Assembly: GCA_000403275.2 (NCBI GenBank)
Contig: KE159598.1
Coordinates: 679,236-743,235, forward strand
Direction: 5' to 3'
Length of the DNA: 64,000 bases
Source: Lachnospiraceae bacterium 28-4
Lineage (GTDB): Bacteria > Bacillota > Clostridia > Lachnospirales > Lachnospiraceae
Translations under genes and position numbers: made by a program
The notes under the pieces: model-generated
What the model saw: the letters and a program-made list of their open reading frames with translations, nothing else
Database searches by the model: none
What the model was told of the DNA's origin: nothing
Part shown: one piece after another, positions 48,449 through 64,000 of the stretch
Layout of the letters: every line of letters begins with the position of its first letter
Position numbering within the stretch: the first letter of the stretch is position 1

Positions 48449-49210
48449 ATGAATTTGAAATATTATTTAAGAGGATTGGGACTGGGCATCGTTATGACTG
48501 CGATCATTGTGGGAATAGCGGCGCGCGGAAAAGATAAAAGCCTTACGGAAGAAGAAATTGTTGAAAAAGCGAAAACGCTTGGGATGATAGAAGAAGAACA
48601 GATGGAAGAATATCTGGAGGAAGCCAGGGCGGAAACGGAAGAAAGGATAAGGAAAGAACTGGCTGAAGAGGCGCCGGCGGTGCCGGCAGCGGAAAGCGTA
48701 AAGGCGGAAGGATCTGCAGGAGAGGAAGATGCAGGAGGCCGGGAAGCTTCAGGCAGCCAGGAAATGAATGATACCCGGGAGCAGGACGGCAGCCGGGAAC
48801 CTGCCAGTGATCAAGATCAGGAAGCAGATGACGGAACGGAACCGGTGGAAGATGTCTATAGAGGGGAGGATGGAAAAACATATCCGGATGGAAAAACATA
48901 TCCGGATGGAAAAACATATCCGGATGGAAAGGCATATCCGGCGGGAGAGGATGCTGCTGCGGCGGACGATAGGACAAAGTCGGAAGAAGGGATGGAACAG
49001 GAGATTATTTTTAATATAAAGAAAGGGGAGACGCCTTACAGTATCGGAAAAAGGCTGGAGGAAGAGGGTTTGCTGCCAGCGGATGCCAATTTTGACCGGT
49101 TTTTGGTAGATAATGGATATGATATGAAAATAGTGGCTTCCGAATACCGGATTCCGACGGATGCGGATATGGAGACGATTGCAAAAATTATTACGAAACA
49201 AGATAGATAA
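48449..49210 (+). CDS. membrane protein with C-terminal MltG-like (LysM-type) domain
   Basis: A 253-residue protein. It has one N-terminal membrane helix (LRGLGLGIVMTAIIVGIAA), a long Glu/Ala-rich region and four tandem hexapeptides (YPDGKT/A) at about residues 142-165. The C-terminal domain (IIFNIKKGETPYSIGKRLEEEGLL, then FLVDNGYDMKIVASEYRIP) resembles the substrate-binding module of endolytic transglycosylase MltG, but the catalytic domain is absent. The ATG at 48449 follows GGGGG at 48439-48443. Confidence 0.65.
   Translation: MNLKYYLRGLGLGIVMTAIIVGIAARGKDKSLTEEEIVEKAKTLGMIEEEQMEEYLEEARAETEERIRKELAEEAPAVPAAESVKAEGSAGEEDAGGREASGSQEMNDTREQDGSREPASDQDQEADDGTEPVEDVYRGEDGKTYPDGKTYPDGKTYPDGKAYPAGEDAAAADDRTKSEEGMEQEIIFNIKKGETPYSIGKRLEEEGLLPADANFDRFLVDNGYDMKIVASEYRIPTDADMETIAKIITKQDR
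48868..48939 (+). repeat. four 18-bp tandem repeats in the MltG-like gene
   Basis: Units start at 48868, 48886, 48904 and 48922 (ggatggaaaaacatatcc; the last differs at two bases). The first three are identical. Being a multiple of three, copy number changes would keep the frame. Confidence 0.9.
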
Positions 49211-50258: not shown

Positions 50259-51194
50259 ATGGCTATTACAGCAGCAATGGTAAAAGAATTAAGAGAAATG
50301 ACTGGCGCAGGTATGATGGACTGTAAAAAGGCGCTTACCGAGACCAATGGTGATATGGATGCAGCAGTAGAGTTCTTGAGAAAGAACGGACAGGCAAAAG
50401 CGGAGAAAAAGGCGGGCAGGATCGCAGCGGAAGGCCTTTGCCGCGTAGCAATGGACGGCGATCAGTGCGCAGCGGTTGTAGAAGTAAATTCAGAGACCGA
50501 CTTTGTGGCTAAGAATGCAGATTTCCAGAATTTCGTAGAAACAGTGGCGGCTCAGGCAGTATGTTCCGATGCGGCAGACATTGATGCTTTTATGGCGGAA
50601 AAATGGAAAGAAGACGCTTCCAAGACCGTAAAAGAAGCTTTGGTAGAAAAAGTAGCGGTAATCGGCGAAAATCTGAATATCAGAAGATTTGAAAAAGTAG
50701 TTGCATCGGAAGGCTGCGTAGTTTCTTACGTACATGGCGGCGGAAGAATCGGCGTTATCGTGGAAGCAGCTACGGATGTGGTAAATGATGCTGTTAAGGA
50801 GGCGCTTACCAATATTGCAATGCAGGTAGCGGCGCTGTCTCCCAAATATGTGTCTACAGCGGATGTTTCCGAAGAATATAAGGCCCATGAGAAAGAGATC
50901 CTTATGGCACAGATCGCTCAGGATCCTAAGATGGCAGGAAAGCCGGAGAAGGTAATCGAGGGCGCAGTGGTAGGCCGTTTAAATAAGGAGTTGAAGGAAG
51001 TATGCCTGTTAGAGCAGACTTATGTGAAGGCAGAGGACGGAAAGCAGACGGTTGCACAGTATGTGGCTCAGGTAGCGAAAGAAAACAGCGCAGCGCTTTC
51101 TATTAAGAAGTTTGTTCGCTTCGAGACCGGTGAAGGTCTGGAGAAGAAGGAAGAGAACTTTGCGGAGGAAGTTGCGAAGCAGATGAATCAGTAG
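50259..51194 (+). CDS. tsf: translation elongation factor Ts
   Basis: A 311-residue EF-Ts, the GDP exchange factor for EF-Tu. The UBA-like N-terminus and signature are clear: LREMTGAGMMDCKKALTE, FLRKNGQAKAEKKAGRIAAEG, and VVEVNSETDFVAKN. The C-terminus ends EEVAKQMNQ. The last codons (from 51180) are copied at 59285 downstream, and a diverged copy is at 57698; see the island entries. pyrH, the usual next gene in Firmicutes, is absent from the remaining 12.8 kb. Confidence 0.97.
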   Translation: MAITAAMVKELREMTGAGMMDCKKALTETNGDMDAAVEFLRKNGQAKAEKKAGRIAAEGLCRVAMDGDQCAAVVEVNSETDFVAKNADFQNFVETVAAQAVCSDAADIDAFMAEKWKEDASKTVKEALVEKVAVIGENLNIRRFEKVVASEGCVVSYVHGGGRIGVIVEAATDVVNDAVKEALTNIAMQVAALSPKYVSTADVSEEYKAHEKEILMAQIAQDPKMAGKPEKVIEGAVVGRLNKELKEVCLLEQTYVKAEDGKQTVAQYVAQVAKENSAALSIKKFVRFETGEGLEKKEENFAEEVAKQMNQ

Positions 51195-51208
51195 AAATTT
51201 GTCGAAAT
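51180..51208. repeat. tsf 3'-end direct repeat, native copy (putative attachment site)
   Basis: The 29 bases beginning cagatgaatcagtag are identical to 59285-59313, 8.1 kb downstream. They cover the last codons and stop of tsf plus 14 nt. A shorter diverged version (cagatgcgttag) is at 57698-57709. Confidence 0.7.
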
Positions 51209-51232
51209 CAGGCGAATAGAGATAGGAATGAG

Positions 51233-51275
51233 AACCCTTGTAAGTGGCGTGGATGTGCCATTTGCAGGGGTTTTT
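51233..51275 (+). terminator. rho-independent terminator of rpsB-tsf
   Basis: A 16-bp stem with a few G-U pairs (AACCCTTGTAAGTGGC with GCCATTTGCAGGGGTT), an 8-nt loop and a T5 run. A related terminator recurs at 59338-59380. Confidence 0.88.
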
Positions 51276-51301
51276 AGTGTTTTATGTTGAATTTTCATTT
51301 C

Positions 51302-51330
51302 TTGACACTGTCACGATATACCGTTATAAT
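51302..51330 (+). promoter_or_regulatory. consensus sigma-A promoter with internal palindrome, XRE copy 1
   Basis: TTGACA (51302-51307), 17-nt spacer, TATAAT (51325-51330): both boxes are perfect. The spacer ends in ACGATATACCGT (51313-51324), a 10-of-12 palindrome, well placed as an operator for the XRE protein encoded next. The same arrangement is kept in copy 2. Confidence 0.75.
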
Positions 51331-51366
51331 CAATAGAAAAGAATCCATGAAATGGAGAATAGAGAA

Positions 51367-51954
51367 ATGGAATTGATGAATTTGTTAAAGGAAAAGCAGC
51401 TTTCTGTTTATCAGTGTGCGAAAGAAAGCCATGTACCATATACTACATTATCAGATATTGTGAAAGGGAAAACCAGGATTGAAAAATGTACCGCAGAAAC
51501 AATATATAAATTAGCGAGGACACTTCATTTGACAATGGAAGAACTTTTAACAGAATGTTTTAAAGAAGATGAAAACGCTCCCAATTTAAGAGATTTTGAA
51601 ATATATAAAAGTAATATCTGTCATTTAGTGAAAGATAAAGGAGAAATTGATTTTATTATTGACACTTTAAAGGAGAATCAAATAAGGACTTATTGGGAAC
51701 GGCAATGGTATCGGGAAAGTTTTTATCTTCTGGCTATGGTAGATTATTTAAGCAGGGAAAATGGACTTCCATTGTGCAATGATTATGAAGATATAAGGAA
51801 CTGTAAGCTGTCGGAGCCGTTATATCCGTGGGATGTTGTTCTTGCTGCAAAATTGGATGGTTCGCTTGATAGGAAAGAACAATGTTTAAAAGAAGCGATT
51901 CCCGAATTTCTGAGGTTTAATATTATAGAAAGCGAGATAAGGAATGTCTGTTGA
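51367..51954 (+). CDS. XRE-family regulator of island cassette 1
   Basis: A 195-residue protein. The N-terminal helix-turn-helix (LSVYQCAKESHVPYTTLSDI, then IEKCTAETIYKLARTL) is of Cro/XRE type. The C-terminal 130 residues (for example WERQWYRESFYLLAMVDYLS) match nothing I can name. The ATG at 51367 is chosen over 51352 because copy 2 has no equivalent of the upstream ATG in frame, and GGAGA falls between. It overlaps the nucleotidyltransferase gene by 11 nt. Copy 2 at 59472 differs at about 16 of 195 residues. Likely autoregulator, and possibly antitoxin to the next gene product. Confidence 0.82.
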   Translation: MELMNLLKEKQLSVYQCAKESHVPYTTLSDIVKGKTRIEKCTAETIYKLARTLHLTMEELLTECFKEDENAPNLRDFEIYKSNICHLVKDKGEIDFIIDTLKENQIRTYWERQWYRESFYLLAMVDYLSRENGLPLCNDYEDIRNCKLSEPLYPWDVVLAAKLDGSLDRKEQCLKEAIPEFLRFNIIESEIRNVC

Positions 51955-52672
51955 GAAAGGTTTTACCAAAGAAAATTTGGATTATTATTTGAAAGAATTG
52001 GCAAAAGAGTTTCGGAAAAGAAATGGGAAAAATACACCTGCTGAGATTGTGTTAGTTGGGGGCGCAGCAATCCTTGCCAATTATGGGTTCCGTGAAATGA
52101 CCTATGATATCGATGCAGTCATAACAGCATCATCAGCCATGAAGGAAGCGGTGAACGCAGTAGGAGACCGTTTCAGTTTGCCAAATGGCTGGCTGAATGC
52201 AGACTTTAAGAATACGAGTTCTTATAGTCCTAAATTGTCGCAATACTCTAAGTATTACCGTACCTATTCTAATGTATTGAATATCAGAACAATTAGTGCG
52301 GAATATCTTGTTGCCATGAAATTAATGTCCGGGAGACGTTATAAGAAAGATTTGTCTGATATTATTGGTATTTTGGGTGAACAGGAAAGAATGGGAGAGT
52401 CTTTAAGCTATCAGCAGATTGATTGTGCAGTAAAAAATCTGTATGGCGGATGGGATCATATTTCTAAATATGCAATACAGGTTTTGAAAGTGGCTTTAGA
52501 TTCAGAAAACCTAAAAGAATTATTTATGGAACAGAAACGTGAAGAGGCATTATCAAAACAGGCAGTGCTTCAAGTTCAAAAATATGAAGGGGAAAAAGTA
52601 AAGGAAAGTAATGTGGATGAGATTATTCAAAAAGCTATAAGGAAGAAAAGGGATAGCAGGGATGTGAGATAA
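51944..52672 (+). CDS. DUF6036-like (AbiEii-type) nucleotidyltransferase, cassette 1
   Basis: A 242-residue protein with a minimal nucleotidyltransferase core: IVLVGGAAILANYG (GG at 39-40), FREMTYDIDAVI (D55, D57) and later EYLVAMKLMSGRRYKKDLSDI. These resemble the DUF6036 and AbiEii families, in which an HTH protein and a nucleotidyltransferase form toxin-antitoxin or abortive-infection pairs. The C-terminus is helical and charged. It overlaps the XRE gene and is 14 nt before the 644-residue gene. Copy 2 is at 60049. Confidence 0.72.
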   Translation: MSVEKGFTKENLDYYLKELAKEFRKRNGKNTPAEIVLVGGAAILANYGFREMTYDIDAVITASSAMKEAVNAVGDRFSLPNGWLNADFKNTSSYSPKLSQYSKYYRTYSNVLNIRTISAEYLVAMKLMSGRRYKKDLSDIIGILGEQERMGESLSYQQIDCAVKNLYGGWDHISKYAIQVLKVALDSENLKELFMEQKREEALSKQAVLQVQKYEGEKVKESNVDEIIQKAIRKKRDSRDVR

Positions 52673-52686
52673 AAAGAGGTGCGATA

Positions 52687-54621
52687 ATGATAACTGATAG
52701 GAAAGAAATCGAGAGTGTGCTTCAGATTGGTGAGAAAATCTTATTAGATCATCCAGAATTGTACAACATGAGTTTGGATGAGGTGTTAGTTAAATTGGAT
52801 GATGGAACAGAGCAGATGCTGCACAATAGATGGGGAGTGACGGCATGGATGGTGGTACAATCATTGGAATGCTTTGATGTGAAAAATTTGGTTATACAGT
52901 TGTCGGAGATAGATAGTGGGATTCTGACTTATAAGTATGCAGGGTATCTTCTTCAAGTAAAATATCAAATAAATTTAGAAGAACTAATATTGGAAGCGGA
53001 TAAATATGAGAAGTTTGATAAAATCATATTATATGTCAATGAAAATATTGTATTTCAATCAGAAGTAAATGAACAATATATTGGCAGAATTATAAATATG
53101 ATTGGAAACCATATGGATAATAACCTTCACCGAGCTTTTTTAGTAAATTATGCAAAGTACATTATAAATATGGATGCACAAAGGCTGACAGAAGAAATAT
53201 TAGGAAACCTGGCAGGACAGGCACAATATGATTTTATGTCTGTTTTACGGTGGGAATGGTATCAGAAAGATGTGTTAGAAGCGGCAAACGTCGCTGAGAG
53301 GATGATTCAAAGGGGCAGTTTCTGGAGTAAAAAAGCTGCCATTGATTTTGTAGAGAGTGGATTCTATTATGATAAAGCGATATTCGGAAGATATTTTGTA
53401 CAGTTAGAAAATATGGCCTTAGAGAATGCAGAGCTTTGGCAGATGATAATCAAAGTTTTTGTGAATTATGCGGTTAAAGTTACTTCCGGTGATAGTATCG
53501 AAGAGAAACAGTTATACCGTAAAGTTATTGAATATTTGAAAAAGATTCCGGAAGGAACATTACAGGAAAAAAGCTGTTTTATTGAGGCTTTACAGTGGAA
53601 TAAGGAAATTCCAAAAGAGATAGTGTCCATTTTTCAAATTCTAATATCAAAATCATTTGGTAAAAATCAAAATATATTAGATATGCTGAAAAATTACTTA
53701 TATGTGCAAATAGAAAATGCTGGATGGAAAATGATATTAAAAAATATGCGGCAGATTTTTATTGCTAATAAGTATGGTGCCAATTATGAAGAATTTTTCA
53801 ACGGAATGTCAACAATTATTTATGAATTTTCAAAGTATCCAGAGAGAGTAACTAGAGAAGCCTTGAAGGATATGCTTTCGGCGGATGTAGACATTTTTTT
53901 CTTTGGACTAGGACTATTATTGAAAGCTGGAAACCTTTCAAAATTATATAGTGAAAATGAAGTGTCCGAAGTAAAGATAATCTTTACTAATTGGCAGATG
54001 ATACGTTTGATGAAAGGAGCTCTTTACTTTGCAGTTGAGACGAAAAAGATTTGTCATATGGCCTTTCAGCTGCTGGGTTTTTCTGGCGAGAATAATAGTA
54101 AATATATAGAATTTTGCATGGAGGAAGTATATGGAAATTATCCGGGAACATTTTTTGAAATTGCAGAAAACTATAAGGAAGTAAACGATTCAAAACAGGT
54201 AGATTTAGCAAATAGAGTCATAAAAGTGCATAACCGAATTTTAAAGGAAAGAGAATTATGTTACAAAATTAAAGATTTGCGACCCTCCAGAATACATCAA
54301 AACATTTATCGGAAAGCGCGAATGGATCAAAATCGACAAATGAATAAGAGAGCGCATAAGGAATCTTTTTTTGCACAGATGTTTCCTGCGGAAATATTGA
54401 AATATGGAAAGCGAAGTGGATTTATTGTTATAGGGAGACGTGATGAAGAAAGTTTTCAGGTAAGTCCATTTGCAAAATTTGAATATAGTATCGAAATACC
54501 AGCGGTTTATACAAAAGATCCAGTGGAGTTTGAATTGCGTAGAAGGAAATATTTGGATGAGGTGAAAAAGAATGCGGCTAGTAATAAAGGATTACCTGCT
54601 TCAACTGAAAGAAAAAGATGA
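52687..54621 (+). CDS. 644-residue helical protein of cassette 1, function unknown
   Basis: Not recognised. The protein appears almost wholly alpha-helical, with repeating hydrophobic helices about 35-40 residues apart (for example LITYKYAGYLLQVKYQ-like and DFMSVLRWEWYQKDVLEAAN), suggesting a HEAT/ARM-like scaffold. No membrane segment, Walker motif or nuclease motif was seen. The basic C-terminus follows a short beta-rich part (KRSGFIVIGRRDEESFQVSP). It is translated from AGAGGTG, 14 nt after the nucleotidyltransferase gene, and overlaps the next gene by 50 nt, so the two products probably act together. AT-rich codon use differs from the flagellar genes. Confidence 0.7.
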   Translation: MITDRKEIESVLQIGEKILLDHPELYNMSLDEVLVKLDDGTEQMLHNRWGVTAWMVVQSLECFDVKNLVIQLSEIDSGILTYKYAGYLLQVKYQINLEELILEADKYEKFDKIILYVNENIVFQSEVNEQYIGRIINMIGNHMDNNLHRAFLVNYAKYIINMDAQRLTEEILGNLAGQAQYDFMSVLRWEWYQKDVLEAANVAERMIQRGSFWSKKAAIDFVESGFYYDKAIFGRYFVQLENMALENAELWQMIIKVFVNYAVKVTSGDSIEEKQLYRKVIEYLKKIPEGTLQEKSCFIEALQWNKEIPKEIVSIFQILISKSFGKNQNILDMLKNYLYVQIENAGWKMILKNMRQIFIANKYGANYEEFFNGMSTIIYEFSKYPERVTREALKDMLSADVDIFFFGLGLLLKAGNLSKLYSENEVSEVKIIFTNWQMIRLMKGALYFAVETKKICHMAFQLLGFSGENNSKYIEFCMEEVYGNYPGTFFEIAENYKEVNDSKQVDLANRVIKVHNRILKERELCYKIKDLRPSRIHQNIYRKARMDQNRQMNKRAHKESFFAQMFPAEILKYGKRSGFIVIGRRDEESFQVSPFAKFEYSIEIPAVYTKDPVEFELRRRKYLDEVKKNAASNKGLPASTERKR

Positions 54622-55312
54622 ATTAGATTTATTTTTATGTGATTTGTTGCTTCAAATGGGTTATATTACAGATAATAAGCCAAAAACCGGAAATAGACAA
54701 TATGGTGTGGATATTCGTGCATATAATGACAATGAAATACTTCTTACCATAGTGAAGCAAGGAAATTTGAATCGAAGAAATTGGGATTCTGATCAGAATG
54801 CAGTCAGGCAGAGTTTAAATGATATTCAAGATACATATATAGAATTTATCAAAGGAAAAGAACGTAAAAAAGAGTTGCATATTATTGTGGCTGCAAATGG
54901 TGTGATAGATGAAGCGGTTAGACCAAGCTGGGAAGGATATGTCAGTCACAATACTACATGGAGCGGAATGAAAGTACAAATTGAATTTTGGAATATAGAC
55001 AAATTAGTGGATGATGTTCAGAAATATCTATTTGATGAACATATTTTTGGAGCGGAGATGCAGAGTTTCTTGAGAAAAGCCTTGTATTTTATTGGTGAAA
55101 GTGATTATAGAAATGAGTATTTTGAATGCATTATTGAGGATTATCTTTTACGATTAAAAAGTATGGATACACCAAAAGAGCGTAGAAAGAAACTTTCAGG
55201 TCTCCATTTGGCATGTCAGATGATTGCTCAATATGCAGCGGAAGCAGGTATTTACAAAATTGGTATTATGGTATCAGAATATCTGATTATCAGATACTGG
55301 AAATACATGCTA
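54572..55312 (+). pseudogene. 5' part of a restriction-nuclease-like gene split by an IS630 element
   Basis: The first 247 codons of a 536-residue reading frame. The N-terminus looks like a PD-(D/E)XK restriction fold: LFLCDLLLQMGYITD, then GNRQYGVDIRAYNDNEILLT and IVKQGN. D47 and K62 could be catalytic, but the residue two before the Lys is Ile rather than Glu/Gln, so activity is uncertain. GAGGTG (54559-54564) precedes the ATG. Through the inserted element the frame runs only one codon further (Val, TAA). Removing 55313-56593 plus one TA joins codon CTA to GAG at 56596 in frame. Confidence 0.8.
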
Positions 55313-56595
55313 GTATAATATCTTTTTAATAGCTCGACTATATTTAAGACCTGTGCTATAATGTCTTTATAAAAATTTTGGAGGACATTTTCATGGGCAA
55401 AAAAGCATCATCAATCGAACTTAGCAATGAAGAAAGAGAATATCTGGAACTTCAAACTCGTGCCAGAACAATTCAAGCTCAAACCGTTACAAGAGCGCGA
55501 ATTTTATTATTACGTGCGGATGCCATGTCCATAGATGCGATTGCTGATAAAGTAGGTCTCAACCGCTGCAGCGTCATGCTCTGCCTTAAAAAGTTTAAAG
55601 AAGGAGGCATTGAAAACGCACTCTTTGATGCTCCCGGCCGTGGAAGAAATGCTGAGATTACAGACGAAGAAAAAGCCTGGATCATTAACACCGCGTGCCA
55701 GAAGCCAGTTGATTTTGGATATGCTGCCGAAACCTGGACTTATGCAGGGCTGACCTCACATATTAATAAAACTGCTGAAGCAGCTGGATACACAAGACTT
55801 TCCACCATTCATAAAAGTACAGTAAATACGATTCTTGACGAGGCAGACATAAAACCACATAAAATAACTTATTATTGTGAGAACAGAGATCCTGATTTTG
55901 ATTCCAAAATGCATAATGTACTGCTTGTGTATAAGCAGCTTGAAATGCAGTTTAACGAATCCGGAGAACTTATTGTATCTGATGATTCACCCGTACATGT
56001 GCTGTCTTATGATGAAAAGCCTGGAATACAGGCTGTTGCAACAACATCGGATGATTTAATGCCGGACGAAAGGCATCAGGCCATCAGTAGGGATTACGAA
56101 TACAAACGTTTAGGTACTCTTTCATTATTAGCTGCAATCGATCTCCAAACAGGAGAAGCGATTCCGCTTGTAAGAGACAGGCACAGCAGCAGGGAATACA
56201 TAGAATTTTTAAAGCTGTTAGACGACAAGTACCAAAAGGGAGACAAAATCCGCATAGTACTCGATAATCTTAAAGTTCATACATCGGAGGCAACCAGAAA
56301 ATACCTGGCAACCGTACCAGGAAGATTCGAATTTGTATTCACTCCCAAACATGGATCATGGCTTAATATGGTTGAAGGTTTCTTCAGCAAGATGACTCGT
56401 CAGATGCTTAAAGGCATCCGTGTCAAATCTAAGGAGGAACTTACTAATCGCATCTACAACTATTTTGCAGAAATAAACGAAGAACCGATTGTGTTCCACT
56501 GGAAATATAAACTTGATGACATTGATGTATCGGAAGAAATCATTGTTGATACTCTGCCTGTCAAAAAGTCGATTTAATTAAAAGATGAAATACTA
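55311..56595 (+). mobile_element. IS630-family insertion sequence with TA target duplication
   Basis: Element body 55313-56593 (1281 bp) between duplicated TA dinucleotides (55311-55312 and 56594-56595), as expected for IS630/Tc1 insertion. The terminal inverted repeats (55313-55338 and 56568-56593) match at 20 of 26 positions, starting GTAT and including ATCTTTT and TCGAC. It holds one transposase gene and interrupts the restriction-nuclease-like gene. An extended -10 (TGCTATAAT, 55354-55362) lies before the transposase. Confidence 0.92.
55393..56577 (+). CDS. IS630 family transposase
   Basis: A 394-residue DDE transposase. It has an N-terminal HTH (MSIDAIADKVGLNRCSVMLC), a linker, and the catalytic domain with Asp in VLSYDEKPGIQA, Asp in IRIVLDNLKVHTS and Glu in HGSWLNMVEGFFSKM. 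The ATG at 55393 follows GGAGGACATTTTC. The stop lies inside the right inverted repeat. It appears intact, so the copy may still be mobile. Confidence 0.93.
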   Translation: MGKKASSIELSNEEREYLELQTRARTIQAQTVTRARILLLRADAMSIDAIADKVGLNRCSVMLCLKKFKEGGIENALFDAPGRGRNAEITDEEKAWIINTACQKPVDFGYAAETWTYAGLTSHINKTAEAAGYTRLSTIHKSTVNTILDEADIKPHKITYYCENRDPDFDSKMHNVLLVYKQLEMQFNESGELIVSDDSPVHVLSYDEKPGIQAVATTSDDLMPDERHQAISRDYEYKRLGTLSLLAAIDLQTGEAIPLVRDRHSSREYIEFLKLLDDKYQKGDKIRIVLDNLKVHTSEATRKYLATVPGRFEFVFTPKHGSWLNMVEGFFSKMTRQMLKGIRVKSKEELTNRIYNYFAEINEEPIVFHWKYKLDDIDVSEEIIVDTLPVKKSI

Positions 56596-57465
56596 GAGAA
56601 CAATAAACTTGGCAAATTATCGGATGTAGAATGGTTACATAAATTTTTAGCTATGTATGAAAAATGGAATCAAAAATATTATGAGGCAGTTCGGTATTGT
56701 TGCGAGGGAGAAGACAGGATTCCATTTTATAATCCAGTAGAGCAGAGATTGTTGGTGTATGAGGTATTAGGGTATCTGATTTCGTATGCTTATTATTTAT
56801 CATTTCGAAGAGAATATGATAGAGTGGCGGGTGGAAGATGTTATGAGGTTCACGCAAGTATAATTAACTTAATAAATAATCATGCACAATTTGCATATGC
56901 GCCATATGACCGTCATATTGGAATTATCAGTATGTTATATCGCCTATTAGATCGTTTAGAACGGACAGAAGATATTTGTGGACTGATGAGATATCAGTGT
57001 ACACGTTTAGCGTATTATTATCTTATGTACCATAAATATCCAACGACCGCAGATTCCATTGAAGATGCCATTGATATTGATATGGGAGCTTTGGCAGAAG
57101 ATTATCAGACTTCTGCATTTTGGGGGACTATGTTGGAGTGGATAGTATTAATGGATCAGTGCGAATTGTATCAATTTTTACAGAGCTTTTTGAAAGATGA
57201 TTTGAAAAATGTTACGAAATGTGTATGGTTTTTAAGGTCAGAAGAAGAATCCAAATTTTATGATGTCTATGCAATGAATCAGGCAGGTGAAGGGATGGCA
57301 TTGCGATTGGAGAAAACGTTTGATAAGTTTAAAGAAAAAGTCATGTTTATTATGAAACAGTATGAGAAAGAGCAATTTAGTTTTGATGAATATTCGTTTG
57401 CAGCATTGGAATTTATTGTCTGTAGATATTATGGGTATTTAGTACGTGTTAAACGAGAAGAATAG
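56596..57465 (+). pseudogene. 3' part of the interrupted restriction-nuclease-like gene
   Basis: The final 289 codons of the frame that begins at 54572. This half is helical and rich in aromatic residues (YEVLGYLISYAYYLSFRREY, IGIISMLYRLLDRLERTED, EMLEWIVL-like stretch) with no recognised domain. An ORF from the ATG at 56653 could give a 270-residue fragment, but no good ribosome binding site precedes it. The frame is otherwise free of stops, so the insertion is recent. Confidence 0.75.
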
Positions 57466-57469
57466 AGAT

Positions 57470-57703
57470 ATTTGGGGGAAGAATCTTACCCCCAAATGGA
57501 GAATGGCTATCCCCCAAATTTGAAAAGTATGTAACAAGAAATTTTAAAAAACAAAATGATTTTCCCCAAAAATAAAATTTGGGGGATACGGTTGAAAAGC
57601 CGCTGGCTTAGAGCAGTCAAAAATCACAGCAAAGCCAGTAAAATACATAGTTCCGGGGATATGCGACCAGAACACAAAAAGAGGAAAGTTCGTAAAACAG
57701 ATG
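57470..57703. repeat. island repeat R, copy A
   Basis: About 234 bp closely matching 59046-59290. It contains a hairpin ATTTGGGGG/CCCCCAAAT (57470-57478 and 57489-57497), a larger inverted repeat TATCCCCCAAATTT (57508-57521) with AAATTTGGGGGATA (57575-57588), and CTGGCTT...AAGCCAG. It ends in a reading frame for GKFVKQMR and a stop, which resembles the EF-Ts C-terminus. It directly follows cassette 1. Confidence 0.8.
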
Positions 57704-57743
57704 CGTTAGTGAACTTTGCGGCGAATTTTATAACGAAACGAAA

Positions 57744-57779
57744 AGAATCTATGGGTAAATGCTCATAGGTTCTTTTTTT
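57744..57779 (+). terminator. rho-independent terminator after repeat R copy A
   Basis: AGAATCTATGGG pairs with CTCATAGGTTCT (12 pairs, two of them G-U) around a 6-nt loop, followed by T7. It lies after the tsf-like end of copy A, in the position the tsf terminator holds at the native site. Confidence 0.85.
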
Positions 57780-57812
57780 GAACTTTATATATGAAAATAT
57801 TAAAAGTTGAAG

Positions 57813-57818
57813 TATAAT
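57813..57818 (+). promoter_or_regulatory. -10 box before the YhcG cassette
   Basis: TATAAT with only a weak -35 (TATGAA, 57790-57795). It is the best promoter candidate between the terminator at 57779 and the gene at 57965. Confidence 0.35.
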
Positions 57819-57849
57819 AAGAGAAAAATAATAATTTCAGAAGGTGGAT

Positions 57850-57978
57850 ATGATGAGTTATCTTAGAATGTATAGAGATAAGAATGATACTTTAAAAATA
57901 GGTGAACTTAGTGATTATGTTAAATTTGTCAGACGGTGTCTGACAAATTTAAGGGAGGTAATGCATGGGCGAAATTAG
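57850..57978 (+). CDS. possible 42-residue leader peptide ORF
   Basis: An ATG with AAGGTGG (57841-57847) opens a 42-codon frame (MMSYLRMYRDKND...) that crosses the perfect hairpin at 57921-57951 and overlaps the YhcG-type gene start by 14 nt. Translation through the hairpin could control the downstream gene. It may equally be chance. Confidence 0.3.
   Translation: MMSYLRMYRDKNDTLKIGELSDYVKFVRRCLTNLREVMHGRN
57921..57951. promoter_or_regulatory. perfect 14-bp inverted repeat at the YhcG gene ribosome binding site
   Basis: TAAATTTGTCAGAC (57921-57934), a 3-nt loop GGT, and GTCTGACAAATTTA (57938-57951), immediately before AGGGAGG (57952-57958). As RNA it is a strong hairpin; as DNA it is an operator-like palindrome. 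Confidence 0.7.
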
Positions 57979-58987
57979 ATTAAATACTGTATTGGAAGAT
58001 TTAATTTTAAACATTGAAGAAACCGTGAAAAGAGCAAAAGAGAACCTAGCAGGTGTTGTTAATAGCACCATGACAGAAACCTATTGGCTGATTGGAAAAT
58101 ATATTGTGGAATCAGAACAGAATGGTAACATTAAAGCGGCTTATGGAAGTAAATTACTTACTACACTTTCTAAAGAATTGACGTTGCGTTTAGGTAAGGG
58201 CTATAGTCGGCCGAATCTAAATAATATGAGAAAGTTTTATTTAAGATATCCAGATTATCATTTAGTATCTGATAAATTGAGTTGGTCACATATCTGTGAA
58301 CTGATAAAAATTGATGATGATTTGGAAAGAAGTTTTTATGAAAAAGAAACGATAAGCGAAAAGTGGGGTGTTAGGGAACTACAACGTCAAATGGAATCTG
58401 CACTTTTTCTTCGGTTGGCAGTGAGCCGTGATAAAGAAGGAATTTTATCATTAGCACAGGAAGGAATTGAGATTCAAACACCTGAAGATGTTATTAAAAA
58501 CACTTATACTTTAGAATTTTTGAATATACCAGAATTGAAACAATATTCGGAAGGTGATTTGGAACAAAGAATAATTGATAATCTCCAGATATTTTTGCTA
58601 GAACTCGGAAAAGGTTTTACCTTTGTTGGACGACAGTATAAAATAACAGTAAATAATATTCACTACCATGTAGATTTGGTATTTTACCACCGTATTTTAA
58701 AATGTTTTGTGCTAATTGATTTAAAGAAAAATTCGGTTAGACATGAAGATATAGGTCAAATGAATATGTATCTGGGGTATTTTGCAATGGAAGAGAATAT
58801 GCCAGATGACAATGCGCCTATTGGGATTATTTTAAGTAAAAACAAAGATGAATTGCTTGTAGAATATGCTACTTATGGGATGGACAGCAATCTATTTGTT
58901 TCAAAATATGAATTATATCTGCCTAACAGAAAAGAGCTGGAAAAATTGGTTTATAATATTTTACATGATGATATACAAAACGGATAA
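57965..58987 (+). CDS. YhcG-type PD-(D/E)XK nuclease domain protein (DUF1016)
   Basis: A 340-residue protein of the YhcG family. The N-terminal winged-helix-like DUF1016_N region includes GKGYSRPNLNNMRKFYLRYP and LSWSHICELIKI. The C-terminal nuclease domain has VDLVFYHR (D237), FVLIDLK (D252, K254) and GQMNMYL (Q265), the family's active-site pattern. Relatives occur widely in accessory islands and restriction-like loci; their precise role is unproven. It stands alone between repeat R copies A and B, forming cassette 2. Confidence 0.88.
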   Translation: MGEIRLNTVLEDLILNIEETVKRAKENLAGVVNSTMTETYWLIGKYIVESEQNGNIKAAYGSKLLTTLSKELTLRLGKGYSRPNLNNMRKFYLRYPDYHLVSDKLSWSHICELIKIDDDLERSFYEKETISEKWGVRELQRQMESALFLRLAVSRDKEGILSLAQEGIEIQTPEDVIKNTYTLEFLNIPELKQYSEGDLEQRIIDNLQIFLLELGKGFTFVGRQYKITVNNIHYHVDLVFYHRILKCFVLIDLKKNSVRHEDIGQMNMYLGYFAMEENMPDDNAPIGIILSKNKDELLVEYATYGMDSNLFVSKYELYLPNRKELEKLVYNILHDDIQNG

Positions 58988-59045
58988 AATACAAACGTAT
59001 AGACTGTAAAAAGATATTTCGTGATAATCTGTAAAAAGGTTAGGA

Positions 59046-59290
59046 ATTTGGGGGAAGAGCCTTACCCCCAAATTCCCCCAAATGGAGAATGGCTATCCCC
59101 CAAATTTGAAAAATAAGAAATTGGAAATTTTAGAAAGCAAAATGAATTTTCCCCCAAAATAAAATTTGGGGGATGCAGTTGAAAAGCCGCTGGCTTAGAG
59201 CAGTCAAAAATCTCTGCAAAGCCAGTAAAATACATAGTTTCGGGGATATATGACCGGAACATGAAAAGGGGAAAGTTCGCAAAACAGATG
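59046..59290. repeat. island repeat R, copy B
   Basis: About 245 bp closely matching 57470-57703, with the same hairpins (AATTTGGGGG 59045-59054 with CCCCCAAATT 59065-59074). It ends in GKFAKQM, in frame with the copied tsf end NQ and stop. The stretch 58988-59471 holds no gene other than this repeat, the tsf-end copy, a terminator and a promoter. Confidence 0.8.
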
Positions 59291-59313
59291 AATCAGTAGA
59301 AATTTGTCGAAAT
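59285..59313. repeat. tsf 3'-end direct repeat, downstream copy (putative attachment site)
   Basis: Identical over 29 bp to 51180-51208. Similarity then continues, with scattered differences, through the terminator, promoter, XRE gene and nucleotidyltransferase gene to about 60777. Confidence 0.8.
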
Positions 59314-59337
59314 TGGGCAGATAACGATAAGAATGAG

Positions 59338-59380
59338 AACCCTTGTAGATGGTGTGTGAATGCCATTTGCAGGGGTTTTT
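59338..59380 (+). terminator. copy of the tsf terminator
   Basis: AACCCTTGTAGATGG pairs with CCATTTGCAGGGGTT, followed by T5. It is a diverged copy of the terminator at 51233-51275. Confidence 0.8.
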
Positions 59381-59406
59381 GATATTATGTATTAGATTTT
59401 CATTTC

Positions 59407-59435
59407 TTGACACTATCACGATATACCGTTATAAT
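59407..59435 (+). promoter_or_regulatory. consensus sigma-A promoter with internal palindrome, XRE copy 2
   Basis: TTGACA (59407-59412), 17-nt spacer, TATAAT (59430-59435). ACGATATACCGT (59418-59429) is preserved exactly from copy 1. Confidence 0.75.
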
Positions 59436-59471
59436 CGATAGAAAAAGAATACATGAAATGGAGAATGAGAA

Positions 59472-60059
59472 ATGGAATTGATGAGTTTGTTAAAGGAAAG
59501 GCAGCTTTCTGTTTATCAGTGTGCTAAGGAAAGCCATGTACCATATACTACATTGTCAGATATTGTGAAAGGAAAAACCAGGATTGAAAAATGTACAGTA
59601 GAAACGATATATAAATTAGCGAGGACGCTTCACGTGACAATGGAAGAACTTTTAACAGATTTTTTTAATGAAGATGAAAATGCGCCAAATTTAAGAGATT
59701 TTGAAATATATAAAAGTAATATCTGTCATTTAGTGAAAGATAAGGGGGATATAGACTTTATCATTGATATTTTAAAAGAAAATCAAATAAGGACTTATTG
59801 GGAACGGCAATGGTATCGGGAAAGTTTTTATCTTTTGGCTATGGTAGATTACTTAAGCAGGGAAAATGAACTTCCATTGTGTAATGATTATGAAGATATA
59901 AGGAACTGTAAGCTGTCGGAGCCGTTATATCCAAAGGATATCATTCTTGCTACAAAGCTGGATGATTCCCTTGATAAGAAAGAACAATGTCTGAAAGAAG
60001 CGATTCCTGAATTTTTGAGGTTTAATATTATAGAAAGCGAGATAAGGAATGTCTGTTGA
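59472..60059 (+). CDS. XRE-family regulator of island cassette 3
   Basis: A 195-residue near-copy of the protein at 51367, with about 16 differences, mostly conservative and concentrated around residues 60-66 and 150-168. The helix-turn-helix is almost unchanged, so it should recognise the same operator. It overlaps the next gene by 11 nt exactly as in copy 1. Cross-regulation between the two cassettes is likely. Confidence 0.82.
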   Translation: MELMSLLKERQLSVYQCAKESHVPYTTLSDIVKGKTRIEKCTVETIYKLARTLHVTMEELLTDFFNEDENAPNLRDFEIYKSNICHLVKDKGDIDFIIDILKENQIRTYWERQWYRESFYLLAMVDYLSRENELPLCNDYEDIRNCKLSEPLYPKDIILATKLDDSLDKKEQCLKEAIPEFLRFNIIESEIRNVC

Positions 60060-60777
60060 GAAAGGTTTTACCAAAGAAAATCTGGACTATTATTTGAAGG
60101 AACTGGCAAAAGAGTTTCGGAAGAGAAATGGAAAAAATACGCCTGCTGAGATTGTGTTAGTTGGAGGTGCGGCAATTCTTGCCAATTATGGGTTTCGTGA
60201 AATGACCTATGATATAGATGCGGTCATAACAGCATCATCGGCCATGAAGGAGGCAGTTAATACAGTAGGAGACCGTCTCGGTCTGCCAAATGGCTGGTTG
60301 AATGCAGACTTTAAGAATACAAGTTCTTATAGTCCTAAATTATCGCAATACTCTAAGTATTACCGTACTTATTCTAATGTATTGAATATCAGGACAATTA
60401 GCGCGGAATATCTTGTAGCCATGAAATTAATGTCCGGGAGACGTTATAAGAAGGATTTGTCTGATATTATTGGTATTTTGAGTGAACAAGAAAGAAGGGG
60501 AGAGCCTTTAAGTTATCGGCAGATTGATTGTGCAGTAAGAAATCTGTATGGCGGGTGGGATGATATTTCCGAATATGCAATACAGGTTTTGAAAGCGGCT
60601 TTAAATTCAGAAAATCTGAAACAATTATTTATGGAACAGGAACGAGAAGAGGAATTATCAAAACAGGTAGTGTTTCAAGTTCAAAAATATGAAGGAGAAA
60701 AAGTAAAGGAAAGTAATGTGGAGGAGATTATTCAAAAAGCTTTGAGGAAGAAAAGGGATGATAGGGGTGCGAGATAG
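60049..60777 (+). CDS. DUF6036-like nucleotidyltransferase, cassette 3
   Basis: A 242-residue near-copy of the protein at 51944, with about 22 differences, mainly in the C-terminal half. The core motifs GG (39-40) and D55/D57 are kept. Similarity between the two loci stops right at the end of this gene; downstream sequences are unrelated. In cassette 3 it is followed by an MBL-fold gene instead of the 644-residue gene. Confidence 0.72.
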   Translation: MSVEKGFTKENLDYYLKELAKEFRKRNGKNTPAEIVLVGGAAILANYGFREMTYDIDAVITASSAMKEAVNTVGDRLGLPNGWLNADFKNTSSYSPKLSQYSKYYRTYSNVLNIRTISAEYLVAMKLMSGRRYKKDLSDIIGILSEQERRGEPLSYRQIDCAVRNLYGGWDDISEYAIQVLKAALNSENLKQLFMEQEREEELSKQVVFQVQKYEGEKVKESNVEEIIQKALRKKRDDRGAR

Positions 60778-60801: not shown

Positions 60802-61944
60802 ATGAAAATCAATGACATTCATATAAAAATGTTTCGGGCAGGTTCAGGCGACTGTATATTATTAGAATTTGAAAAGGCAGATTTTAGAATATTGATAGAT
60901 GGTGGATTTGTAGAAACTTATCAACAAGAGATTCGCCCTTATTTGCGGATGTTAAGTAAAAAAGGAAAACATATTAATTTATTAATCATATCCCATATTG
61001 ATCAAGACCATATCAATGGGATAAAAGCATTGTTAAAAGAAAATGGAAATTCAAATTCACCTAAAATCGTACAAATAGATGAGGTATGGTTTAATGGGTT
61101 TAGGCATACTGAAGTGAAACGAGATAAAAAAGATATCTCTCATTATGAGGAAGCTGTTTTACGAACTTTGGCAAATAAAAATAGTTATTTGGAAAAGGCA
61201 GATGGATCCAGAGAAATTAGCTATATGCAGGGAAACAGCGTTGCAGAACTGCTTATTAAGAACAATTATCATTGGAATACGTCTGTAAAGGGCAGTCCAA
61301 TTTCTACTGACACAATAAGACATAAGGCATTTGGAAATATTACATTTCAAATATTAAATCCAACGCAAAAAATATTGAATGAACTTGTGGAAGATTGGCT
61401 GTGGATGTTGAAAGCAAAATGCAAACAGGTAATAATATCAGACAATTCTTTGTTTGATGATGCGTTTGAGGGAGCCTATATTGGTGAGCATGAAGACTGG
61501 TTTGTGACAAAAAAGGATATTTCAAATGACAGAGAGAATAAGGAATATAATTGGAAATTGATAGCAGAAGAAGATGACGAGAAAGCAGATGCAAAATTGT
61601 CGAATCGTTCTTCTATAGCTGTGCTTATTTCATATCAAGGAATAAAACTTTTATTTCCTGGGGACTGTGCAATTCATTTTTTTGAGGATATGCTTCCTGA
61701 TAAAATAGATATTGTGAAACTCCCTCATCATGGTTCGGGGAAAAATACAGATAAAAATTTTATTCGGAATACCTATGTGAGCTACTATCTTATTTCTACA
61801 AATGGAAAACATCAGGAACATCCTTCCCCAAAGATCATAGCAAATATTTTAACGAAAGCGCCGGGACATCCAATGATTATTAAAAACTATGATATTCCTA
61901 TTTTAGAGGGGATAGGAAAACTGGAAAGGGAGGAAATCGGATGA
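60802..61944 (+). CDS. ComEC/Rec2-like metallo-beta-lactamase-fold protein
   Basis: A 380-residue protein, cytosolic by sequence (no signal peptide or membrane segments). The metal-binding motif SHIDQDHING (H65, D67, D69, H70) is followed by LLFPGDC, KLPHHGSG and STNGKHQEHPSP, the layout of the ComEC-type MBL domain, which belongs to the nuclease or phosphodiesterase side of the fold. All expected metal ligands appear present. It overlaps the protease gene by 4 nt (ATGA), so a joint function is likely. Confidence 0.85.
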   Translation: MKINDIHIKMFRAGSGDCILLEFEKADFRILIDGGFVETYQQEIRPYLRMLSKKGKHINLLIISHIDQDHINGIKALLKENGNSNSPKIVQIDEVWFNGFRHTEVKRDKKDISHYEEAVLRTLANKNSYLEKADGSREISYMQGNSVAELLIKNNYHWNTSVKGSPISTDTIRHKAFGNITFQILNPTQKILNELVEDWLWMLKAKCKQVIISDNSLFDDAFEGAYIGEHEDWFVTKKDISNDRENKEYNWKLIAEEDDEKADAKLSNRSSIAVLISYQGIKLLFPGDCAIHFFEDMLPDKIDIVKLPHHGSGKNTDKNFIRNTYVSYYLISTNGKHQEHPSPKIIANILTKAPGHPMIIKNYDIPILEGIGKLEREEIG

Positions 61945-64000
61945 AAGCTACAAATAATATTGTGAAGTTATTATGCGGAACAGAGCAGCAGGGAACAGCA
62001 TTGTTAGTGGATCAGGAACATGCAATAACAGTAAGGCATTGCTTGAAAGACTTTTATAGAAAAAGAGCTTCATCAATTATTCTTGTAGTTGTCATAGATG
62101 GAATTAGCAAAGAGACTTCTGCCTTGCCAGCGGATAAAGAGGAAAGTGCATTTGTCTATTTGAACTTGGAGGAAAAAGTAGAATCTGTAAATGAAATTCA
62201 TTTTTTGGATTGCAAGTTAGAGGCATTACAAAAGGCTTCCATGTTTGGGTATGGGAAATGTTATGCAAATGGAAGCTGGAAAGAGTTAAAATTTTCTGGC
62301 AGAGAGGATTTGGATAAAAATAGTGTTTGTGATTTGCAATTTGATCTAATTGATGCCAGGGATAAAACGTTTGCTGGATTTTCCGGAAGTCCTATATATG
62401 ATGAGGAATGTTCTTTTGTTATTGGATTGATTTTACAAGAAGAATGTGCAGACCATGAAGCAATTTATATAGAAGGGATTAGTGTTAGTTCTCAGAAAGA
62501 TTTTTTTGAAAAACATGATATTGTTGTTAATAATACGAATCTGATAAGAAAGAAAACAGGAGAAAGAGCAAATGCCCTGCAGATGACAGATTGCTATATT
62601 ACCGGCGTATCCGATACAATAGACGAATTAAATAATATTATCTTAGATAAAATCGTTGCTTTACATCGTGAAGGGTACTGGGAAAGGGCATTGTCCGAAC
62701 TGAAAGAACAGATTCAATTACAACAAGGGGATGTCCGGACATCGGATGAGATAAAGGCTAAATTCCTGCTTCAGCAGGCTATGTGGATTTTAGAAGACAG
62801 TCATAATATTTCTGCGGCAAGTAAGATATATCAAAAGGCAGTTCGTTTCTGTGAAAGTTTAGATACAAAAGTTTTTCTTGCATTGCGGGCATTTTATTCA
62901 GGGGAATCGAGCGCGAGGAAATTGTTAGAGCCGATAGATTCTCAGTCGTCTTTTCATGCTTATATGCAGATTTGTGTAAATCAAAGGGATGGAAAAGCTG
63001 CAATTAGGGCATATGAAACATATAAAGATATTTATTCGTGTAATAGCAGGACATGGTATTGGGTATCCATTGCTAATCTTTTAAACTGTGATTTTTTAAA
63101 GGCAGAAGAGTTTTTAAAGAAAGCGATTGATGAAAATGGAGAAATATTTGATTATTGTATCCTTAGAGCATTGATTCAGTATTGGAAGACAATTCCTATA
63201 GAGGCATTTCATAGAATAGATTCTATTTATCCGGGTTTATATTCGGAAGGAATTTATTTTTTTAAGAATGATATCAGAACGCTCATTATGGATGTGGTAA
63301 ATGATTTTAAATTGGCATATCAAAAAGCAGACAGCGTTGGTAACAAAAAGCAGAAAGAACTAGCGCTTGTTTGCTGGATTAATGCGCTTTCAGTGGATAA
63401 TCTACTATTTTCAAAGGTTATGGAACCATTGGATTTATTAAAGAAAGTTAATCCTTATCATGTAATTGCATTGATGGTAGATGTATTATGCGGCAGGGTT
63501 TCTCAGGATGAAATATATGAAAAGCGGTTAAAGGCGCTAATAAAGAAAGAAAAGAACCCAATGGGATATATTTATACTCTGACAGAGTATTTTATAAAGG
63601 TAAATGAAGATGCTAAGGCCAAATCCCTTTTGTTTGAGCAGGAACAAAATTTTAAAAAATTTTCATGCATGGAATATTGGTATATGCAGATTGCCTATTT
63701 GGAAAAAGATGCGGAAAAGAGGAGATTGTTTGCAAACAAGGCTAATAAGGAATCTTCGATGAGTGAGATTCAGAAGAAGAGAATTTGCTGTATGTTTGCG
63801 TTGGGTTATGAAAAAGATGCATTACAGCAACTGGAATCCTTATATGACGATACAAAAGAACTACATGATTTAATGAATCTTATCCGATATAGTGGGAAAC
63901 AGCAGAAGTGGGATGTTAATCTGAGATATGCAAAAATCTTAGAAGTGGAACATCATAATCCTTGTGGGTATCTTTACCAAATAAAAGCTTTTATGAAAAT
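61941..64000 (+). CDS. trypsin-like serine protease with helical-repeat C-terminus (partial, runs off window)
   Basis: An open frame of 686 codons without a stop before the window end. The N-terminal ~200 residues look like a chymotrypsin-fold peptidase: GTALLVDQEHAITVRHCL gives H33, D90 in HFLDCKL is a plausible Asp, and FAGFSGSPIYD gives nucleophile S148 (GFSGSP in place of GDSGGP). No signal peptide is present, so it should act in the cytosol. From about residue 250 the protein is a long array of helical hairpins resembling TPRs (for example WERALSELKEQIQL, SAASKIYQKAVRFCE, KAEEFLKKAIDENG). It starts at ATG 61941, coupled to the MBL gene. Confidence 0.78.
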   Translation, partial: MKATNNIVKLLCGTEQQGTALLVDQEHAITVRHCLKDFYRKRASSIILVVVIDGISKETSALPADKEESAFVYLNLEEKVESVNEIHFLDCKLEALQKASMFGYGKCYANGSWKELKFSGREDLDKNSVCDLQFDLIDARDKTFAGFSGSPIYDEECSFVIGLILQEECADHEAIYIEGISVSSQKDFFEKHDIVVNNTNLIRKKTGERANALQMTDCYITGVSDTIDELNNIILDKIVALHREGYWERALSELKEQIQLQQGDVRTSDEIKAKFLLQQAMWILEDSHNISAASKIYQKAVRFCESLDTKVFLALRAFYSGESSARKLLEPIDSQSSFHAYMQICVNQRDGKAAIRAYETYKDIYSCNSRTWYWVSIANLLNCDFLKAEEFLKKAIDENGEIFDYCILRALIQYWKTIPIEAFHRIDSIYPGLYSEGIYFFKNDIRTLIMDVVNDFKLAYQKADSVGNKKQKELALVCWINALSVDNLLFSKVMEPLDLLKKVNPYHVIALMVDVLCGRVSQDEIYEKRLKALIKKEKNPMGYIYTLTEYFIKVNEDAKAKSLLFEQEQNFKKFSCMEYWYMQIAYLEKDAEKRRLFANKANKESSMSEIQKKRICCMFALGYEKDALQQLESLYDDTKELHDLMNLIRYSGKQQKWDVNLRYAKILEVEHHNPCGYLYQIKAFMK

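Follow-up and report, generated by a model that had tools for sequence, protein, structure and literature searches.

The 3′ end of tsf as a probable integration site for stacked integrase-less elements with defence-type cargo in Lachnospiraceae

Why does the end of tsf, the gene of elongation factor EF-Ts, recur several times behind the gene itself in Lachnospiraceae bacterium 28-4? We analysed a window of 64,000 nucleotides (assembly GCA_000403275.2, contig KE159598.1, positions 679,236 to 743,235 of the forward strand), in which tsf is followed by a row of gene cassettes separated by a repeat, R. An earlier note on the window had proposed serial integration into the 3′ end of tsf. Our interpretation, to which we assign a probability of roughly 0.8, is that the last codons of tsf are the attachment site (attB) of a clade of Lachnospiraceae tyrosine integrases, and that the array consists of four stacked elements without an integrase, which would be moved by a helper. 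The genome of the window (4.28 Mb) is called G000 and comparison genomes carry other G numbers; the genus set has 16 genomes, with tsf found in 14, and the family set has 397. Coordinates above 64000 are window-equivalent and come from the adjoining 57 kb of chromosome. The labels Phd, Doc, GNAT, MCP, opp, ParA and IS4 were assigned by eye unless a scan is named.

Copies of the tsf end behind the gene

The site and its repeats are arranged as follows:

50259..51194, + strand: tsf (EF-Ts), the target gene, recognised by translation; 13 further genomes of the genus have orthologues with 86-97 % identity, two of these being partial matches
51180..51185, + strand: CAGATG, putative crossover core on the attL side
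51195..51275, + strand: element-type 3′ untranslated region (UTR) and terminator hairpin (ACCCTTG...CAGGGGTTTTT), common to other cassette left ends
57470..57703, + strand: R1, putative right-end attachment arm with the CAGATG core at 57698-57703 (repeat comparison and BLAST of the own genome)
59046..59290, + strand: R2, putative right-end attachment arm with the core at 59285-59290, similar to the integrase-side arms of G191, G208 and G369
68070-68364 (window-equivalent): R3
73430-73717 (window-equivalent): R4

The 29-bp sequence CAGATGAATCAGTAGAAATTTGTCGAAAT has exact copies at 51180-51208 and 59285-59313, its only 2 matches in the window; no third site was found there with up to 3 mismatches, and 100 shuffles gave 0 matches. 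Around these copies a longer repeat pair extends over 51174-51340 and 59279-59445 (84 % identity), and R itself is seen as a pair at 57539-57710 and 59126-59297 (85 %). A third version of the tsf end, with the frame for KFVKQMR and a stop, ends at 57709 and has its CAGATG at 57698. The earlier note had described the exact recurrence, this diverged version and the position of both downstream tsf ends at the ends of R (the copies starting at 57470 and 59046), and all of this was confirmed. The layout of tsf, cassettes, R and tsf end also holds, and continues beyond the window with R3 and R4. All four copies of R with a tsf end in the genome lie behind tsf (57470, 59046, 68070 and 73430), and BLAST of R against the own genome returned five matches, all in the tsf locus, one being the tsf end itself. 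The R copies delimit four units, namely an Olokun cassette (cassette 1), a YhcG-nuclease cassette (2), a cassette with a metallo-β-lactamase-fold (MBL) protein and a protease/TPR protein (3) and an HD/HATPase cassette (4). In most of the cassette-free genomes that we read, the tsf terminator differs from the element-type terminator.

Occupied and empty sites in the genus

Three congeners have an empty site, in which an ABC-transporter operon, presumably opp, starts 518 bp (G002), 598 bp (G013) and 560 bp (G003) after tsf. The earlier note had expected relatives with tsf followed directly by pyrH; the empty site was thus found, but its neighbour is the transporter operon, with pyrH about 7 kb further on in G002. 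Behind the terminator of G003 there are 62 bp that match the beginning of the regulator region in cassette 1 (58/62 identical), and we read them as the scar of an element formerly present.

In G004 a YhcG cassette stands directly behind tsf, which ends in QMR-stop, the same ending as at R1. The match between cassette 2 and G004 begins at 57694 (86 % over 188 bp) and resumes with 91 % over 1,093 bp past a stretch absent in G000, R1 itself being unmatched. In its part at 57698-57965, cassette 2 is short of about 0.95 kb found before the YhcG gene in G004, mainly a 318-aa open reading frame (ORF) of which only the start is left. The contig of G005 stops 222 bp after tsf, within a regulator of the cassette 1/3 type, and G001 carries genes of plasmid or integrative and conjugative element (ICE) type behind tsf, with R just before the transporter operon. 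The remaining congeners have other neighbours behind tsf. In G010 and G015 the tsf end is repeated only about 60 bp behind tsf, like a tiny emptied element (compare microCIMEs, small relatives of the cis-mobilizable elements, CIMEs, treated below).

Tyrosine integrases specific for the tsf end

A survey of the tsf neighbourhood in 200 genomes, with 41 stretches read, led to G267, in which a tsf-end copy comes after a tyrosine integrase gene. G191 has a relative (53-54 % identical) some 25 kb behind tsf, with a tsf-end copy 1.4 kb (1,376 bp) further on. The profile built from these two integrases gave 19 matches in 17 of the 397 family genomes. Since loose matches to the tsf-end motif (3-4 mismatches) arise by chance at many loci, they were counted only just after the integrase gene and with a stop following. 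Among the ten best integrases a tsf-end copy after the gene is clear in five (G191, G208, G369, G244, G267) and probable in three (G419, G239, G371); none was found in G336, where the gene holds a stop, and in G043, where less than 1 kb of contig is left. The distance from integrase to tsf-end copy is 125-262 bp except for the 1,376 bp in G191, and for four integrases the contig also carries tsf, upstream at 4.7 to 58 kb and in the same orientation.

The genomes G244 and G267, from two other genera, share the same 6.1-kb integrase-bearing element. Their left junctions are identical rightwards from CAGATG and their right junctions up to CAGATG, and the host DNA outside differs, which maps the core to these six bases and means that tsf receives its final residues and its stop codon anew from the element. 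The element encodes the integrase, and four further proteins that were scanned are Rep_trans, a protein with a weak DUF961 match, GNAT and a helix-turn-helix (HTH) protein. With a tyrosine integrase and a fixed attachment core it has what defines a tsf-specific integrative and mobilizable element (IME), and by its gene content it looks IME-like. The integrases of G267 and G191 are not of the integron type, as they reach 57-58 bits with integrase_gron (NCBIfam) against a cut-off of 265.

Relatives of the clade integrases in virus contigs are only 20-32 % identical. The 101-kb virus contig IMGVR_UViG_3300035497_000375 begins with tsf (42-980), followed by phage-type genes including, by eye, a reverse transcriptase-like ORF; prophages may use the tsf site too. 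On contig C47 of G028 (reverse complement) we noticed a fragment of a tsf-clade integrase (223-446) and a tsf-end core without R at 4395, a decaying relative of the array elements.

Transfer of cassettes between genera

A sequence model of R matched 12 of the 397 family genomes, nine of them strongly. R is located downstream of tsf in seven of the nine strong hosts, all those with tsf on the stretch (G000, G028, G315, G326, G359, G386 and G433); in G016 and G423 it lies at a contig edge on a stretch without tsf. BLAST added G001 as a further host. These counts leave aside short BLAST matches (30-48 bp) in distant genomes. In 41 further tsf stretches, related cassettes or their remains were present in three (G160, decayed, G237 and G053). 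The att core with at most one mismatch occurs in 2 of 392 genomes of the order, both of the same family; in G053 its distance behind tsf is 2.4 kb. Searches of phages, plasmids and, by exact patterns, virus contigs gave no R.

Whole cassettes have passed between genera. Over 8,979 bp, cassette 3 shares 99.2 % identity with a cassette in G028, which belongs to another genus, whereas the adjoining rpsB-tsf is 72-78 % identical in aligned pieces; in G028 the cassette stands first behind tsf and its long ORF is split in two. A Lamassu-like cassette shared by G433 and G326 is 96.5 % identical over 4,720 bp, against 73 % for rpsB-tsf. Its G326 copy, the only one scanned, carries LmuA (1.5e-40), LmuB (8e-135) and LmuC (5e-13) together in PADLOC and the Pfam domains CTD7, MC3 and DUF3732, as a Lamassu or ABC-3C system.

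These comparisons bear on the strongest alternative, named already in the earlier note, that the array has grown by local tandem duplication and homologous recombination of tsf-end copies without any site-specific recombinase. In its favour, cassettes 1 and 3 agree to 91.6 % in their HTH and nucleotidyltransferase genes, the R copies offer long homology, some left borders lie at the terminator and not at the core, and host-type blocks flank the elements in G315 and G359. However, the cargo differs in every unit, cassette 3 is closer to another genus than its duplicated part is to cassette 1, and integrases specific for the same six bases exist. The R copies themselves also speak against it. 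R1-R3 are 88-91 % identical to each other and 86-91 % to R of G001 and G028, while R4 is 92 % identical to R of G326 and only 82-83 % to R1-R3. The own copies are no closer to each other than to those of other genomes; taken with the cassette comparison, this excludes local duplication of the simple kind for cassette 3 and leaves it unlikely for R4. As an account of the whole array we consider it improbable; recombination within the tsf-end and terminator block is nevertheless needed for some left borders (see below). The gene pair of cassettes 1 and 3 could have come about by local duplication or by separate arrival.

Similarity of R to integrase-side arms

R resembles the arms that lie on the integrase side of G191-type elements. 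With the core removed, R2 scored 91-96 against the arms of G191, G208 and G369, and R3 scored 87-89, and none of 300 dinucleotide shuffles reached these values in either case; the G244 arm was borderline (1-2 of 300). At eight control integrase loci, compared with R2 only, 3, 8 and 80-297 of 300 shuffles did so. The arm motif TTGGGG/CCCCAA is present six times in R2, with a maximum of four in 1,000 shuffles, and each of 13 aligned R copies ends at the tsf-end core. No direct parent element with an R arm was found; integrase fragments are present in G028.

The cognate recombinase might instead be one of the Tn916-type integrases beside R in G001, where the gene ends about 530 bp before R, or in G028, where it reads towards R about 280 bp after the core. 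We give this very little credence. The G001 integrase is 99 % identical in three other records, in whose flanks, read in part, homology ends about 275-295 bp after the gene and is followed by different neighbours and no R; it was rejected as it travels with its own end. The two integrases are 33 % identical to each other, and that of G028 is probably a separate element in the AT-rich flank.

That R is a regulatory RNA, or a repeat without a role in integration, is suggested by its strong inverted repeats (TTTGGGGG/CCCCCAAA) and is highly improbable, as two-sided change was seen in only 1 of 44 predicted pairs across six copies, so that the RNA reading was rejected for lack of covariation, and as all 13 aligned copies end at the tsf-end core and R is similar to integrase-side arms.

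Proposed mechanism and points against it

We propose that crossover takes place within CAGATG (Gln-Met) at the end of tsf. The incoming element would supply the last residues of tsf, its stop codon and terminator, and its other end would keep the arm and a copy of the tsf end. Four elements would have been inserted in tandem, all sharing the arm R but each with a defence-type system of its own, and a clade integrase arriving on an ICE or IME would move the R-type cassettes, with homologous recombination between the repeats adding to the shuffling. The units would be CIMEs or helper-dependent equivalents. As in CIMEs, attL and attR ends flank the cargo, the tsf end and R with a tsf end standing at every unit border, and no functional integrase or transfer gene was found within the scanned ORFs. 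Two left borders lie at the core: the Lamassu-like cassette is identical in 152 of 160 nt to the right and in 43 of 60 to the left, and cassette 2 begins there as well (G000 against G004). Serial integration at the tsf 3′ end, as the earlier note had it, is well supported by the empty sites, the cassettes in other genera with diverged flanks and the mapped crossover of the integrases.

Several observations weigh against this proposal. No integrase was found adjoining a true R arm, and no intact member of the clade in an R host; the best clade-integrase match in G000 is 31 % identical over a part and contains a stop, and G028 holds broken pieces only (65-66 % in one contig, 50-52 % in another). 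A role of the tsf clade in moving R-type cassettes can therefore only be inferred. The G239 arm matches R weakly (9-35 of 300 shuffles) and those of G419 and G371 at chance level. Three weak matches to R (G143, G175 and G440; E-values 4e-4 to 1e-3) are on stretches without tsf. G002 seems empty yet carries the element-type terminator, and the segment 73684-80850 before the transporter operon has no R at its right end. At the left border of cassette 3, 17, 14 and 17 of 20 positions are identical in the first 60 nt past the core and only then 20 of 20, and a BrnT cassette differs between hosts before the terminator. In G315 and G359 the elements are flanked left and right by host-type tsf-end blocks (95/97 and 186/212 identical), an arrangement that a single site-specific crossover does not predict. 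Some crossovers must therefore have occurred within the tsf end, UTR or terminator, as homologous recombination would give.

In G440 and G143 the R-like matches lie near a different core-like string, AAAGTTCCCGAAAAAGATG, perhaps a related arm targeting another gene.

Whether the R-type cassettes form a lasting class of their own is a more tentative matter. They could be a helper-dependent class of defence elements and not random wrecks of ICEs, lacking an integrase and keeping a constant arm of roughly 250 bp, inserted singly behind tsf by integrases that visiting elements bring, passed between genera and building an integron-like array; at present we find this possible but rather doubtful.

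Comparison with known systems

Integron cassette arrays consist of tandem, promiscuous cargo units with one common recombination site and a recombinase acting in trans. The tsf array is similar in that its tandem units share one site and would need a recombinase in trans. Unlike in integrons, the site copies the tsf end, the units are multi-gene and there is no IntI-type integrase.

Tandem accretion of CIMEs at the 3′ ends of housekeeping genes has been described in Streptococcus for rpmG, rpsI, fda and rplL (PMC7563491, PMC5704250). As far as the relevant parts of these papers go, the likeness lies in elements that lack an integrase, lie between att sites and pile up at a gene end which every insertion restores, and in microCIME-like remnants. 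The array studied here differs in its site (tsf), its host family, its four units in a row without an ICE or IME partner, all of defence type, and the near-identical cassettes across genera. IMEs with one tyrosine integrase are listed at the 3′ ends of guaA, rplL, rpmE, rpmG, rpsI, trmE and yicC (PMC5704250, Table 1), and the G244/G267 element resembles them in its integrase beside attR, Rep_trans, HTH protein, size of about 6 kb and restored target end. The passage with that table does not name tsf as a site, and 'elongation factor' has 0 matches in PMC5704250.

Defence hotspots at core genes of E. coli and P. aeruginosa (PMC10121019, PMC10250203) are likewise conserved chromosomal places with exchangeable defence systems; the tsf array, unlike them, shows unit borders, a 6-bp core and one arm common to all units. 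Among the full-text matches listed for tsf, or elongation factor Ts, as a place of integration, which come mostly from the open literature and cover subscription journals poorly, none was relevant; within these limits, the statement of the earlier note that tsf is not known as such a site stands. The accretion logic is known, no report of the site or of the integrase clade was found, and the array of defence type is four deep and integrase-less.

The end of an essential translation gene thus becomes a candidate new attachment site, together with an integrase clade that uses it. The defence island gains a readable unit structure, in which a place between tsf and the next R can serve as the guide to new defence genes, and the crossing of genus borders by integrase-less defence genes of the gut becomes testable.

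Content of the array

From left to right, tsf is followed by an HTH regulator, a DUF6036 nucleotidyltransferase, OloA, OloB split by a DDE_3 transposase, R1, the YhcG nuclease, R2, a second HTH and nucleotidyltransferase pair, the MBL protein, a 2039-aa trypsin-like/TPR protein, R3, cassette 4 and R4. Cassette 4 comprises a 268-aa protein, an HD-CE protein, a HATPase piece adjoining a transposase-like ORF and two small ORFs. Beyond R4 there are Phd-like and Doc-like remnants, ordinary genes and then the transporter operon (labels by eye). The cassette features of the window are:

51352..52672, + strand: cassette 1, HTH regulator and DUF6036 nucleotidyltransferase (Pfam HTH_26 5e-7, DUF6036 3e-11), the counterpart of the pair in cassette 3
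52687..57465, + strand: cassette 1, Olokun OloA and OloB, OloB broken by an insertion element (PADLOC OloA 9e-26, C-terminal part only; OloB pieces 1e-56 and 4e-24, scanned apart)
55378-56577: DDE_3 transposase inside OloB (Pfam 1e-23)
57698..59045, + strand: cassette 2, left end (tsf end with QMR-stop) and YhcG/DUF1016 nuclease at 57965-58987 (YhcG_C 3e-54, PDC-S02 2e-132)
59291..60777, + strand: cassette 3, copy of tsf end and terminator, HTH regulator and DUF6036 nucleotidyltransferase (pair at 59472-60777; repeat and cassette comparison)
60802..64000, + strand: cassette 3, MBL-fold protein at 60802-61944 and start of the 2039-aa trypsin-like/TPR protein, which ends at 68060, with R3 from 68070

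OloA stands beside OloB, as is characteristic of Olokun systems in PADLOC, with only the C-terminal part of OloA matched and OloB interrupted. The MBL protein of cassette 3 matches the Avs1a type in NCBIfam (1e-82) with 278 bits, below the curated cut-off of 420, and so does not qualify as AVAST type 1; it also matches LmuA (1e-71). Near to Avs1a and LmuA, and with the 2039-aa trypsin-like/TPR protein as partner, it perhaps represents a separate defence type. Insertion elements are found in OloB (55378-56577) and, by eye, beside the HATPase piece of cassette 4 (70781-72160), and two of the four defence units (Olokun and HD/HATPase) are probably inactive through them, as judged from sequence.

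Looking beyond position 64000, as the earlier note had advised, brought further tsf-end copies and no integrase. Pfam scans of 14 array ORFs or pieces showed no integrase or transfer gene; they took in the HTH/nucleotidyltransferase pair of cassette 1 but not its homologue in cassette 3, nor the 459-aa transposase-like ORF of cassette 4. A comparison of 121.8 kb with four tyrosine integrases gave no homologue at E ≤ 1e-3, and there was no serine recombinase among the scanned window and array ORFs, to which this exclusion applies.

The HTH and DUF6036 nucleotidyltransferase pair heads several cassettes across genera and is possibly an addiction module. A motif resembling a palindrome (TTTGTCAGAC..TGTCTGACAAA, or nearly so) at 57923-57951, present also at left ends in G001 and G359, is a possible operator. 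Upstream of rpsB, a 257-aa ORF contains 18-bp tandem repeats at 48850-48957, which are coding and translate into PDGKTY repeats.

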